The notes under the pieces are model-generated. The model did no database searches and had not been told where the DNA came from. It saw only the letters and a list, made by a program, of their open reading frames with translations. From Nitrososphaerota archaeon (GTDB lineage Archaea; Thermoproteota; Nitrososphaeria; Nitrososphaerales; Nitrosopumilaceae): a stretch of DNA of 58,164 bases. Each line of letters opens with the position of its first letter. Position 1 is the stretch's first letter. The DNA lies in contig JAJPKL010000010.1 of NCBI GenBank assembly GCA_021323705.1, forward strand, positions 1 through 58,164, given 5' to 3'. Below, in pieces: positions 1,560-56,169 of this stretch. A program made the position numbers and the translations under genes.

Positions 1560-2465
1560 CTAGTTTTCTATTCGTACCTTATTTTTCAGAGTTCCTAACT
1601 TTTCAATTTCTACTTCGACAACATCATCATGTTTAAGATATTTGTCGCCTTTGGTAGCAGATAGGGATAATGCTGTTCCACTAGGAGTTCCTGTGGATAT
1701 GATATCACCTGGTTCTAGAGTCATAATTTGACTTATTTTTTCTATTATCTCTTCTATTTTTAACACAAGGTTTTTTGTCGAGGAATCTTGCCGTACTTCT
1801 CCATTAACTTTTGTTACTAGTTTTAGATTATCAGGATCTGATATTTCATCCGTTGTTGTTACCCACGGTCCACACGGACCAAATGTATCAAATCCTTTCG
1901 CTCTGCCATATTGATGATCAATGAATTGGATGTGGCGTGAGGATACATCATTCATGATAAAATATCCAGATATATTGCTCATTATATGGCACTTGTCTAC
2001 CTGCTTACATCTAGATCCTATAACCAATGCCAATTCGCCTTCATAATCTAGCTGTTTAACAAAGGGAGGACATATGATATCACAGTAAGGCCCTGTCAGA
2101 CTCGTTCTAGGTTTTAATGATATAACTGGTTCTTTTGGAGGTTCTTTACCAAAACGTAGCCATGTGTCCTGATCTAAGTAATTAAATGCCAAGCAGATTA
2201 TTTTATACGAATCTTTTATTGGTGGAAGCAGACGAAATTCCTTGATTTGGTGAAAATATTCAAATTTGTTCTCTAATCCTCTAACTAACTCTAAATGCTT
2301 TCCCTCATTTTTGGAAAGAAAGTCTTCTACTCTGTTTGGAAGTTTTACATCAAATTTTTTTTCTATTTCCTTTTTCAAAAGTAGTTTTTCATTTTTGCTA
2401 TCAACAATACCGTAAGTTTCAGAATTATTCATTGAAACTCGTGCTATTTTCAAAGAGACCCACAT
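1560..2465 (-). CDS. Fumarylacetoacetate hydrolase (FAH) family protein
   Basis: A 301-residue protein with the C-terminal FAH catalytic domain, a family of metal-dependent hydrolases, hydratases and decarboxylases acting on beta-diketo or 2-oxo acids. Diagnostic blocks are LDYEGELALVIG (metal-binding Glu residues), GYFIMNDVSSRH, GFDTFGPCGPWV and GDIISTGTPSGT. The N-terminal ~90 residues form the smaller domain found in ureidoglycolate-lyase-like and 2-oxohept-3-ene-dioate hydratase-like members. The substrate cannot be read from sequence. It is a single gene on this strand, followed upstream by the TFB-like gene. The ATG start used gives MWVSLKIARV; a second ATG at codon 12 is possible. Confidence 0.85.
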   Translation of the reverse strand: MWVSLKIARVSMNNSETYGIVDSKNEKLLLKKEIEKKFDVKLPNRVEDFLSKNEGKHLELVRGLENKFEYFHQIKEFRLLPPIKDSYKIICLAFNYLDQDTWLRFGKEPPKEPVISLKPRTSLTGPYCDIICPPFVKQLDYEGELALVIGSRCKQVDKCHIMSNISGYFIMNDVSSRHIQFIDHQYGRAKGFDTFGPCGPWVTTTDEISDPDNLKLVTKVNGEVRQDSSTKNLVLKIEEIIEKISQIMTLEPGDIISTGTPSGTALSLSATKGDKYLKHDDVVEVEIEKLGTLKNKVRIEN

Positions 2466-2553: not shown

Positions 2554-3156
2554 TTAGTTTTCAGCATCAAATAGTTTGGAAAGATATTTTGCGTTATTTC
2601 TTATGGTAACATTGTGTATTCCCGAAACCTCTGAAATCTTCCAAAGAGGCTTCCGATCTTTGTTAATTTTACAGGAAAGGTACACTACCGATGCTGCAAT
2701 AGTGAGTGGTCTTTTTCCTACACACATTTCTTTTTCCTTTGCTTTCATCATGAGGTTTATCGCTTCCCTTCTTGATTCCTCTCGAAGACCCAATTTATCT
2801 GAAATTTTGTAAATCATGCTAGAATAATCATAAGTTCCGCAGGCCAGATCGAGTGAATGAATAAGAATCCTTGCGCAACGTGACAAGTTTTTGACTTTCA
2901 CTTCTCCTGCACATGCAATCTCATACAACGATATAGGAATCGTGGATTGTCTACAAACAATGTAAAGCGAGGACAGGAGAATAATATGTCTGCTCCGTCC
3001 TATCAGGATTCCACTTTCAATAGACTTTTCAAACAGATCAATAGTTTGAATGATACTCGATAACGGAATGCCAAGTTTCTCCGATAGTTCACGTAATGAT
3101 GCCAAGATATATTCAGAGTAAGAGCCACAAGTGCGCAGTGTGGGCTTATTATTCAT
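2554..3156 (-). CDS. TFB-like protein: TFIIB cyclin repeats without zinc ribbon
   Basis: The 200 residues match the core of archaeal transcription factor B. Two cyclin-like repeats are seen (about residues 8-100 and 105-197), the second with GKRPLTIAASVVYLSCKI and a closing helix-turn-helix (ISEVSGIHNVTIRNNAKYL), which in TFB recognises the BRE element. Full TFBs of about 300 residues begin with a Cys4 zinc ribbon and B-reader that recruit RNA polymerase; both are absent. The absence is not a start-choice artefact, because an in-frame TGA lies three codons upstream of the ATG. Thaumarchaea carry several TFBs, so this short form may be a specialised or antagonistic factor (inference). Confidence 0.85.
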   Translation of the reverse strand: MNNKPTLRTCGSYSEYILASLRELSEKLGIPLSSIIQTIDLFEKSIESGILIGRSRHIILLSSLYIVCRQSTIPISLYEIACAGEVKVKNLSRCARILIHSLDLACGTYDYSSMIYKISDKLGLREESRREAINLMMKAKEKEMCVGKRPLTIAASVVYLSCKINKDRKPLWKISEVSGIHNVTIRNNAKYLSKLFDAEN

Positions 3157-3222: not shown

Positions 3223-4110
3223 TTATTTTTCTTGAAATGCTTCTCTTACTGCCTTGTTAAATCGAATTGAATCAGAGACCCATCCAAATACCCCACCTTG
3301 CATTTTTATCTGCTTGATAGCTGCTTGATGATTACCATAATCTGTTGCCCCTGCGCAATCCTTGAGTAGAGTACACCAATACCCTCTATCATTTGCCTCT
3401 CGCATAATTGTATGAACGCAAACATCTGTTGTGATTCCAGAAATGAATACGTGTGTAATTCCCAGATTCTTTAAAATCATATCAATTTGACTGTTTCCAA
3501 AGGCACCCTTGGTAGGTTTGTCTATGATGTATTCTCCTGGATATGGATAAAGATCATCAATTATATCCCAGTTCTTTTCTCCTTGTGTCAATAATTTACC
3601 CATTCCTCCTGCGGGTTGTTCACCAATTCCTACTCCGTCACCTATTATCTTACTTCGAAGTATCTTATTGTATGGTGCGTCAGACAAGTCTGGTGCATGA
3701 CCCTCCCTTGTGTGAACTACCTTTATGTCAGTGTTATTTCGTATTGTTTCTAAAACACTTCTAATTGGTTTAATAGGTGCTGACGTGAGTCCCAAGTCGT
3801 ATCCCATTACGTCAACATAGCCTTTCGGTCCACAAAAGTCCACTTGCATATCCACGCTTATGAAAGCAGCTCTCGCAGAATCAAATTCCACGTATGCAGT
3901 ATCTCCGAATCTCGGACAATCTTCTACTTCAATTTTGATCAATTTACCTCTTGGTGATCCATATAACCAAGTTGGAAATTTGAAAATTTTTGTTTTCTTG
4001 AACTCCTCGAAATCTTGTTGTGCCCTCTTTAATATATCGTCTCGTGCCTTACTCATGAATGGTTCTAAAACTCTTAATGGATAACGTTCTGTCGACATTT
4101 CTAAGGCCAA
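3223..4110 (-). CDS. Isochorismatase-family cysteine hydrolase
   Basis: This amidohydrolase has the Asp-Lys-Cys triad of the isochorismatase/nicotinamidase superfamily: Asp87 in ISVDMQVDFC, Lys198 in IIDKPTKGAFGNS, and nucleophile Cys231 in GITTDVCVHT. About 75 extra residues precede the core, and the length of 295 is above the ~200 of nicotinamidases. That resembles members acting on carbamoyl compounds such as biuret or ureidoacrylate. The start overlaps the end of the upstream NCS1 transporter gene by ten bases, so the two are almost certainly co-transcribed and translationally coupled. Transport plus hydrolysis of an amide- or urea-type nitrogen compound is the inferred role; the actual substrate is unknown. 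Confidence 0.85.
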   Translation of the reverse strand: MALEMSTERYPLRVLEPFMSKARDDILKRAQQDFEEFKKTKIFKFPTWLYGSPRGKLIKIEVEDCPRFGDTAYVEFDSARAAFISVDMQVDFCGPKGYVDVMGYDLGLTSAPIKPIRSVLETIRNNTDIKVVHTREGHAPDLSDAPYNKILRSKIIGDGVGIGEQPAGGMGKLLTQGEKNWDIIDDLYPYPGEYIIDKPTKGAFGNSQIDMILKNLGITHVFISGITTDVCVHTIMREANDRGYWCTLLKDCAGATDYGNHQAAIKQIKMQGGVFGWVSDSIRFNKAVREAFQEK

Positions 4111-5696
4111 CCTCTAAAGCCAGATGTATTACCAGAGCCAATATCTTTCTGGAAAAATCCAGGTAACATAAACTCGGCCACTTTCCCTAGTTTTGATACG
4201 AATCTGTTTGATTTAACATTGGTGGAAATATTTACGTCATTTTCTGGATCGTTGCTAGACTGCAGGTTTGAAAAGTCAGAGGACGATTTGTCATCATAGG
4301 AATTACCCAAAGAAGAACCCGATGTACCTAACGTAGAATCGATTCCAAGCCCTTTTGTAGTAAGCTTTCCACTTAGAGTATATCCTGTGGCCTTTGCGAC
4401 AGCCGGATACACACCTATTCCTCCAATTAATCCTCCAAGGACGGGGGGGAGATCTGGACTAACTATCTGTATAATGACAGCTATTACTAATCCCGTTCCT
4501 AGTCCGATTAACGCTGGAATGTTGTATTTTTTGTCAGCTGCTTTCATGTGTTCATCAAGGGTATTCCTTCGTGCAACGATCCAGAAATGACCTATTAAGA
4601 CTCCTCCTACCAGCGGTGCCAACGTTCCTAGTAGGAGTAACCATGGGACTATGTTAGTGATAAGATTTGCAACACCGACCCCTGCTCCTATAATCATTAT
4701 GATTGCAGCCATTTTTCTCCAAGGTAGGTTAAATTTTCCTTTTGAAATGTAGTAAATTACATTTTTGAATCCTTGTGTTGCATTGTATAGACAGCCATCA
4801 CATACTGAACCATTGCTAGACATTTGCATTATCATCATAGGAATACCAAATGCTACTGCTGCAAGCCCAAAGAAAAAGTCGAGTTTTACTGCAATGGCTG
4901 TAAAAATTCCACCGATCAACAATGTGACCAAGTTACAAACGGGAAATGCTACAGCAGTAACTGCCCATGCCTGTTTTGGAGTCCGAGTCCATCTTACAAA
5001 GTCTCCTGTCATTGTGCTGCTAACGATAAATGTTCCAACTGAGGCAGTAAATCCAAGGGCAAAGCTCCACTGCTTTCCGACCACTGGGGACTCGAAGGGA
5101 TTTCCACCAGTGTGTGCTGCAACTACTGTGACAATAGTGAAAATCATCCATATTTCCAATGCTGCAACACAAAATACTGCCACTTTCCCTAACCAAGCCA
5201 TTGCCTTTATTCCTAAAACAGCAAACATGCCAAAAGCAATGGTGAAAATACCGGCCCAGAAGCTAGTAGTGCCTAGAATTCCTGGGAGACTACCATTTCC
5301 TGTGCCAGCATTAAACGATTTACCACCATAAAGCCCAACTGTTAGATCTGCTGCAAGCCAAGCTTGAAAGATAAACCAGCCAGAGACCAACCCTGCGATT
5401 AATAAAACTGGAACAAGATATCCATACTTTCCAAACGTTGCCTTGCACATCATTGAAAAATTGAGTCCAAGTTGTGAACCACGGTGTGCTATCAAACCAG
5501 AATAAACAAACAAGAATATTTGACCGCCTACAATTGCTGCGTATCCTAATGGGGCTCCAAGTCCTCCCATTATTTGACTGCCGATAAAAATACAGATGTA
5601 TGCATGAGCAAATCCTGCCCAGACCATCGCAGGTTTGAAGAATCCCAATCTTGCGCTCATGGGAACTGGTCGCTCAACATATTCTTCGTCTTCCAT
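4101..5696 (-). CDS. NCS1-family nucleobase/organonitrogen:cation symporter
   Basis: A 531-residue integral membrane protein with about twelve hydrophobic helices, of the NCS1 family (cytosine, purine, allantoin, hydantoin transporters). The N-terminal helices, with FAHAYICIFIGSQIMGG and the Gly-rich GAPLGYAAIVGGQ block, match the substrate/sodium-binding bundle. The last ~80 residues are a hydrophilic Ser/Asn/Asp-rich cytoplasmic tail, longer than usual. It is the first gene of a two-gene operon with the cysteine hydrolase, and is divergent from a PII-like gene, pointing to uptake of an organic nitrogen source under nitrogen control (inference). A TATA-like CTTATATC on the minus strand near 5730 would give a short leader. 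Confidence 0.88.
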   Translation of the reverse strand: MEDEEYVERPVPMSARLGFFKPAMVWAGFAHAYICIFIGSQIMGGLGAPLGYAAIVGGQIFLFVYSGLIAHRGSQLGLNFSMMCKATFGKYGYLVPVLLIAGLVSGWFIFQAWLAADLTVGLYGGKSFNAGTGNGSLPGILGTTSFWAGIFTIAFGMFAVLGIKAMAWLGKVAVFCVAALEIWMIFTIVTVVAAHTGGNPFESPVVGKQWSFALGFTASVGTFIVSSTMTGDFVRWTRTPKQAWAVTAVAFPVCNLVTLLIGGIFTAIAVKLDFFFGLAAVAFGIPMMIMQMSSNGSVCDGCLYNATQGFKNVIYYISKGKFNLPWRKMAAIIMIIGAGVGVANLITNIVPWLLLLGTLAPLVGGVLIGHFWIVARRNTLDEHMKAADKKYNIPALIGLGTGLVIAVIIQIVSPDLPPVLGGLIGGIGVYPAVAKATGYTLSGKLTTKGLGIDSTLGTSGSSLGNSYDDKSSSDFSNLQSSNDPENDVNISTNVKSNRFVSKLGKVAEFMLPGFFQKDIGSGNTSGFRGWP

Positions 5697-5785
5697 GAAT
5701 TTTCAAATTTTACTGAGGTTGCGCAGATATAAGCATAGTTTTGGAATCTTTCAATAAATATTTTAAATGTTTTAATTAAAAAATT

Positions 5786-5823
5786 AAGATATATGTGAAT
5801 TTTTGATTTATTTGATATATCTT
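5786..5823. promoter_or_regulatory. Inverted repeat between transporter and PII genes
   Basis: AAGATATAT and ATATATCTT form a perfect 9-base inverted repeat (10 with the flanking T/A pair), separated by 20 bases, between the divergent starts of the NCS1 and PII-like genes. It lies upstream of both TATA-like boxes, so it could be an operator. The AT richness of the region lowers certainty. Confidence 0.35.
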
Positions 5824-5850
5824 ACCATTAGTGAGTTTTTCGTCATTGTG

Positions 5851-5859
5851 TTAAATATA
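5851..5859 (+). promoter_or_regulatory. TATA box of PII-like gene
   Basis: TTAAATATA is centred about 25 bases before the ATG, the spacing at which archaeal TBP places initiation at the start codon itself. This predicts a leaderless mRNA for the PII-like gene. Confidence 0.5.
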
Positions 5860-5879
5860 TTGTAAAGAATTTTGTAATA

Positions 5880-6212
5880 ATGAAAAGAATAGAAGCTATC
5901 ATTCCCCAAAAAAAACTTACAGTGGTAGATGAAGCATTAAGCAAAAGTGGGGTGACTGGAATCACCATCTTTGAATCAAAAGGTCGCGGAAAAGAACCAA
6001 TTCAACCCATGTTTGCAGGATCTACTAGGTTTGGAATGTTTTTTCCAGAATTTAATCATAGTAATACAATAATGGTATTAGTTAGGGATCAAGATGCCGA
6101 AAAAGTTGTTGAATCTATACAAAAAACTGCTCAGGTAGGAAAAATAATAATCACAAATATCGATACAGTGATAGATATCAAGTCAAACAAAAAGGGAGAA
6201 CAAGGGCTCTAG
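5880..6212 (+). CDS. Atypical PII-family (GlnK-like) signalling protein
   Basis: The 110-residue protein begins MKRIEAIIPQKKL and shows GVTGITIFESKGRGKE, the hallmark of the PII trimer fold that senses ATP/ADP and 2-oxoglutarate and binds ammonium transporters or other partners. Two functional loops are unusual. The T-loop (about residues 37-60) reads through STRFGMFFPEFNHSNT with no uridylylation-type tyrosine. The B-loop, normally TGxxGDGKIF, is VGKIIITNID, losing the Gly-Asp-Gly nucleotide-binding turn. It probably senses differently from the canonical PII at 55.7-56.0 kb. Divergence from the transporter/hydrolase operon suggests a dedicated partner (inference). Confidence 0.85.
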   Translation: MKRIEAIIPQKKLTVVDEALSKSGVTGITIFESKGRGKEPIQPMFAGSTRFGMFFPEFNHSNTIMVLVRDQDAEKVVESIQKTAQVGKIIITNIDTVIDIKSNKKGEQGL

Positions 6213-55683: not shown

Positions 55684-56025
55684 TCATATTGCAAGTACTC
55701 CCTTTTGGCCACTCCCTATGTCTACTGCTGTGTCTATGTTGTCAATGAAAATTTTTCCATCGCCCACAGATCCAGTACTTGCAGTATCCAGAATAGCACT
55801 GACCACTTTGTCAACAATAGAATCATCGACTACGGTAAGCACATAGCTTTTCACGTTGAATTTTTCGTATGATGTTGGAGATTTTTTAGAATCTCTTGTC
55901 ATCTTGCTTGCTCGCCCCCATCCTTTTGCGTCAAAAATGGTAATACCACCAACCCCAATCTTTTGTAGAGCTTCAACTACTGCGCTGAGTTTATCTTTGG
56001 ATACAACAGCCTCTACCCTTTTCAT
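55684..56025 (-). CDS. Canonical PII-family nitrogen regulator (GlnK-like)
   Basis: The 113-residue protein starts MKRVEAVVSKDKLSAV and has GVGGITIFDAKGWGR. Its B-loop STGSVGDGKIFI is intact, so ATP/ADP and 2-oxoglutarate binding should be normal. The T-loop (about 38-54: SKMTRDSKKSPTSYEKF) lacks the usual uridylylation context, as in many archaeal PII proteins. The start is set at the ATG at 56025 because the frame upstream runs into tRNA-Leu. It contrasts with the degenerate PII near the NCS1 transporter. No amt gene is adjacent. Confidence 0.92.
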   Translation of the reverse strand: MKRVEAVVSKDKLSAVVEALQKIGVGGITIFDAKGWGRASKMTRDSKKSPTSYEKFNVKSYVLTVVDDSIVDKVVSAILDTASTGSVGDGKIFIDNIDTAVDIGSGQKGVLAI

Positions 56026-56084
56026 GAAGCCAACAATTGAACAATGGATTATAAATTTTTCATTAATTTGCAGAAATTTGTTAA

Positions 56085-56169
56085 TGCGGGAGGTGGGATT
56101 TGAACCCACGAACTCCTAAGAGATAAGGTTCTGAGCCTTACGCCGTTGACCAGGCTAGGCGACCCCCGC
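56085..56169 (-). tRNA. tRNA-Leu (anticodon CAG)
   Basis: On the minus strand the acceptor GCGGGGG pairs with CTCCCGC (one G-T), followed by discriminator A. The D-arm is GCC/GGC, the anticodon stem is TAAGG/CCTTA around CTCAGAA (anticodon CAG), and the T-arm is GTGGG-TTCAAAT-CCCAC. A long variable arm (TCTCTTAGGAGTTC) marks it as a class II tRNA. There is no intron at the anticodon, and CCA is not encoded. Confidence 0.95.

Follow-up and report, generated by a model that had tools for sequence, protein, structure and literature searches.

Biuret is an impurity of urea fertilizer and a breakdown product, and nitrification would gain a further source of nitrogen from archaea that import it and free its ammonia. 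Among the closest described enzymes are the biuret hydrolase (BiuH) of Rhizobium leguminosarum and its relative TrtA, for which the roles of individual residues have been assigned from published structures (PMC5806882, PMC7948467). Rhizobium clusters, unlike the one described below, also contain AtzD and an allophanate hydrolase. For ammonia-oxidizing archaea, Rasmussen et al. (2025, PMC12625717) already report biuH together with codB, purE, and a gene of the FAH family, and Nitrososphaera viennensis is a reported carrier of biuH. The cluster analyzed here holds the same set (biuH, cytosine permease, purE, and FAH) and is therefore not new, but the accessible part of that report makes no mention of a PII neighbor, a short transcription factor B (TFB)-like protein, or a change in the PurE motif.

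We analyzed a 58,164-nucleotide stretch of DNA from an ammonia-oxidizing archaeon (the window), in which the cluster occupies the positions given in Table 1. The original prediction had described a nitrogen-scavenging locus of an NCS1 transporter and a cysteine hydrolase facing a dedicated PII protein, and the coordinates, strands, and families of these three open reading frames (ORFs) were all as claimed. So was the divergent orientation of the PII gene, which is separated from the transporter by an AT-rich gap of 183 bp (20.8% GC). A ten-base overlap between the transporter and hydrolase genes, in contrast, exists only with a TTG start at 4110 and is probably not real; the likelier hydrolase start is the in-frame ATG at 4098, separated from the transporter stop by 2 nt. 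Because the distance from transporter stop to hydrolase ATG or GTG is 0–4 nt in six of seven orthologous loci (139 nt in the seventh), the tight coupling of the two genes is real even though the overlap is doubtful. The further claim that no known pathway gene adjoins them was wrong, since the adjacent genes for FAH and for a PurE paralogue are both found repeatedly at biuH loci and belong to the cluster. Co-directional and between biuH and FAH lies the gene for the short TFB-like protein, which aligns only to positions 128–307 of the TFIIB model and lacks the N-terminal zinc ribbon; none was found at the other biuH loci, where neighbor clustering left it a singleton, and it is possibly a local regulator.

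Table 1. Positions and family matches of the genes in and beside the biuH-like cluster of the window
Feature	Position	Strand	Family match
PurE2, second AIRC-family paralogue, altered substrate loop	883-1467	+	PF00731 5.1e-48
FAH-family protein, recurrent biuH neighbor	1560-2465	-	PF01557 1.2e-63
Short TFB-like protein, cyclin repeats only	2554-3156	-	PF00382 9.7e-22
Isochorismatase-fold cysteine hydrolase, BiuH-like, long N-terminal form	3223-4110	-	PF00857 2.7e-33
CodB-like NCS1 transporter, proposed biuret importer	4101-5696	-	PF02133 1.3e-20
Divergent PII protein	5880-6212	+	PF00543 1.1e-17

Among solved structures, the hydrolase is matched best by Rhizobium BiuH (6azo, 2.1e-73), followed by RhdBiuH (6xjm), also a close match, and, far behind, by TrtA (6xix, 1.5e-42) and RutB (1.5e-23). 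Its best NCBIfam family is the BiuH model NF050097, but the score of 279.3 bits lies below the equivalog cutoff of 370, and we therefore name the protein BiuH-like. When its residues were placed by alignment to the published BiuH and TrtA structures, the catalytic triad (D87, K198, and C231, corresponding to BiuH Asp36, Lys142, and Cys175) and the biuret-binding residues (K201, T227, Q271, and F92, corresponding to Lys145, Thr171, Gln215, and Phe41) were found to be kept, and the second-shell residues Y98, Y104, D229, and V274 (BiuH Y47, Y53, D173, and V218) are of the BiuH type rather than the TrtA type. The triad, Lys145, Gln215, and the biuret pocket are thus common to the R. leguminosarum enzyme (PMC5806882) and the window hydrolase, from which the former differs by the lack of a conserved N-terminal extension of about 70 residues; the identity of the hydrolase to characterized BiuH is moderate. 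The catalytic residues, the substrate contacts Lys145 and Thr171, and the four BiuH-type discriminating residues are present in all 37 members of the clade with the long N-terminus, in which the Gln215 position is occupied by Gln in 35 and by Glu in 2. The 88 shorter relatives, which served as internal control, fall into two halves, one of the BiuH type and one with the F/N/E/I pattern of TrtA (42 with F/N/I at positions 47/53/218 and 40 with E at 173). Nicotinamidase, RutB, and TrtA identities were rejected on their weaker matches and the wrong discriminating residues, and judged by its residues the hydrolase is best read as a biuret hydrolase.

The transporter matches the structure of the cytosine carrier CodB (7qoa, 2.3e-16), with which it has in common the NCS1 fold and the stacking residues Trp108 and Phe204, but the cytosine-binding Gln105 and the Na-site Thr279 of CodB (PMC9379551) are both replaced by Val. 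The Gln105/Trp108/Phe204 set of the CodB substrate site is thus incomplete in the window carrier, for which cytosine transport was rejected because of the replacement of Gln105; Val at this position is common to the biuH-linked carriers of ammonia-oxidizing archaea and haloarchaea. Of 300 genomes of the order, 11 encode the transporter. Eleven of its 12 copies are located immediately upstream of biuH in the same orientation, and the remaining one is on a short contig with a PurE match and without a biuH match. The linkage expected between transporter and hydrolase is hence strongly conserved in orthologous neighborhoods, and the co-occurrence of both genes across the 300 genomes has a hypergeometric P of about 9e-12, a value that ignores shared ancestry. 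We propose that the carrier is a putative biuret importer.

Relatives that share the N-terminal extension (62–78% identity) were found in ammonia-oxidizing archaea, Clostridia, other Bacillota, haloarchaea, and Nitrosospira, as well as in metagenome-assembled genomes labeled Dehalococcoidia, Bathyarchaeota, Desulfovibrio, and Acholeplasmataceae. Their gene neighbors include the cyanuric acid hydrolase AtzD (540.8 bits, cutoff 360), urea-carboxylase-type proteins, AtzE/GatA-like amidases, AllFG, and carbamate kinase. On a Natronorubrum plasmid, a hydrolase 67% identical to that of the window is followed without a gap by an annotated atzF, with a cytosine permease (a related transporter) nearby, and the known cyanurate/biuret cluster of a Rhizobium plasmid was recovered as a positive control. 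In ammonia-oxidizing archaea the recurring neighbors of biuH are the PurE paralogue, FAH, the NCS1 carrier, and a GatA-like amidase; FAH is present at 14 of 36 other biuH loci, archaeal in every case. At two loci, the cluster of the long BiuH includes a further isochorismatase-like hydrolase of shorter length near carbamate kinase (L061 17172-17840 and L064 8593-9324).

Residues, genomic contexts, and the conserved transporter/hydrolase linkage lend good support to the predicted import and amide hydrolysis of an organic nitrogen compound, and the cluster probably serves biuret scavenging by this ammonia-oxidizing archaeon. The compound had been suggested to be new for these organisms, which is not evidently the case, as residues and contexts indicate biuret and a cluster of this kind in ammonia-oxidizing archaea is already described (PMC12625717). 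Two other substrate ranges have to be weighed against biuret. The hydrolase could be a generalist acting on both triuret and biuret, with PurE2 or FAH handling carboxybiuret, as the lone Rhodococcus BiuH hydrolyzes both compounds (PMC7948467), RhdBiuH is a close match, and this genome likewise holds a single copy; with all four discriminating residues of the BiuH type, however, we consider such a breadth improbable. The recurrence of AllFGHK, NCS1/NCS2 carriers, FAH, and PurE at biuH loci fits instead a different carbamoyl substrate, for example a ureide, that arises when purines or pyrimidines are broken down, and purine products are raised in PMC12625717. While the presence of AllFGHK at many loci makes another carbamoyl substrate possible, the full set of biuret-binding residues is kept, including Gln271, the position that is Gln throughout nearly the whole clade, and the AtzD and AtzF neighbors indicate biuret, so that a substrate other than biuret seems quite unlikely for the window enzyme.

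If biuret is the substrate, the NCS1 transporter would import it and the Asp87/Lys198/Cys231 triad of the hydrolase would cleave it to allophanate and NH3, as residues and context suggest. This genome yielded no allophanate hydrolase candidate and, unlike the loci in PMC12625717, no GatA-like candidate: its one amidase adjoins GatB, and the GatA-like amidase of relatives, used as query, recovered only this true GatA. AllG was not found in the genome either, and urease and its accessory genes are present, which makes a route from allophanate through urea to ammonia the simplest completion. Allophanate would most likely lose CO2, spontaneously or with the help of PurE2, to give urea, which urease would turn into ammonia that feeds ammonia oxidation. 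A genome that lacks allophanate hydrolase candidates but has urease is a new element, and it suggests the sequence biuret, allophanate, urea, ammonia.

The PurE copy of the cluster is a second paralogue, the biosynthetic PurE being encoded elsewhere by a separate gene beside purK (G000:C27). The active site of human PAICS is lined by the MGSTSD residues, with the histidine as general base (PMC9376930). PurE2 retains the AIRC fold and the universally conserved catalytic histidine of PurE/AIR carboxylases but has lost the MGSxSD substrate loop, in place of which it reads VPSIKL, and Ser-Ala-His-Arg is changed to Ala-Ala-His-Trp (AAHW). A cluster PurE without this loop but with the catalytic histidine is likewise new; the same combination was seen in all PurE copies that could be read at biuH loci, and the canonical PurE sequences aligned keep MGSxSD, one of them in the near form MGSETD. 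Among the matches listed in a plasmid search for PurE2, all carried ordinary purE annotations except one unannotated record. Loss of the loop with retention of the histidine suggests, from the sequence, that PurE2 acts on a different, smaller substrate, and our guess that it decarboxylates allophanate or carboxybiuret would be consistent with PurE chemistry. A speculative extension, which we regard as rather unlikely, is that the PurE2 clade has left purine synthesis and now decarboxylates N-carboxylated ureides (allophanate or carboxybiuret), joining biuret hydrolysis to urease without allophanate hydrolase.

Canonical PII proteins (GlnB/GlnK) carry Gln39 and a GDGK B-loop, the ATP/2-oxoglutarate residues, together with Tyr51. 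The window PII departs from all three, with Glu at 39, Phe at 51, and a shortened B-loop; the short B-loop also occurs in the tandem pair of PII proteins that these archaea commonly have and is thus not special to the window protein. A model search found no PII ORF at 37 other biuH loci, many of them on contigs short on one side, and recovered 48 PII ORFs in a control set, part of which had built the model. The dedicated PII of the original prediction is therefore not conserved, and the protein is an accessory neighbor rather than a conserved part of the cluster. Its closest relative, 49% identical, is encoded in genome G165, where the gene follows closely on ureABC and is flanked by an SSF symporter on either side; a search of 300 genomes with this relative gave only G165 and the present genome at E <1e-19, so that the subgroup was found in 2 of the 300. 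The symporter and urease context in G165 makes a lineage-specific transporter role possible. A role of the PII as dedicated gate of the NCS1 carrier, which concerns regulation and is compatible with any substrate, would agree with this context, with the divergent position beside the transporter, and with the fact that sister genomes lack, next to their cytochrome b block, the very stretch to which the PII gene belongs, but the empty record at the other biuH loci, the shortened B-loop and replaced Q39 (changes common to other PII proteins of these archaea), and the small sample of two subgroup members render it doubtful. The window contains a second PII gene (55684-56109, - strand) with an intact GDGK B-loop. 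Beside purE/purK (L184 5530-6807, G000:C27), a PII domain is apparently fused, judged from its sequence, to a C-terminal region resembling class III nucleotide cyclases, and genomes of the same genus repeatedly contain comparable open frames (about 430 aa) with a PII match.

The distribution of biuH is patchy, with the gene in 23 of 300 genomes of the order and in none of 19 other same-genus genomes among those listed. Recent horizontal transfer is possible in view of this patchiness, but the hydrolase tree gives the window sequence no supported position and GC content and codon use are ordinary. Sister genomes have other genes or none beside the cytochrome b block, and a reading of this position as an empty site is only suggestive because the gene at the left edge has the orientation opposite to that in G087. 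In the sister genome G248 (L188 2-7006), the region close to the cytochrome b block resembles a Cas operon in its sequence.
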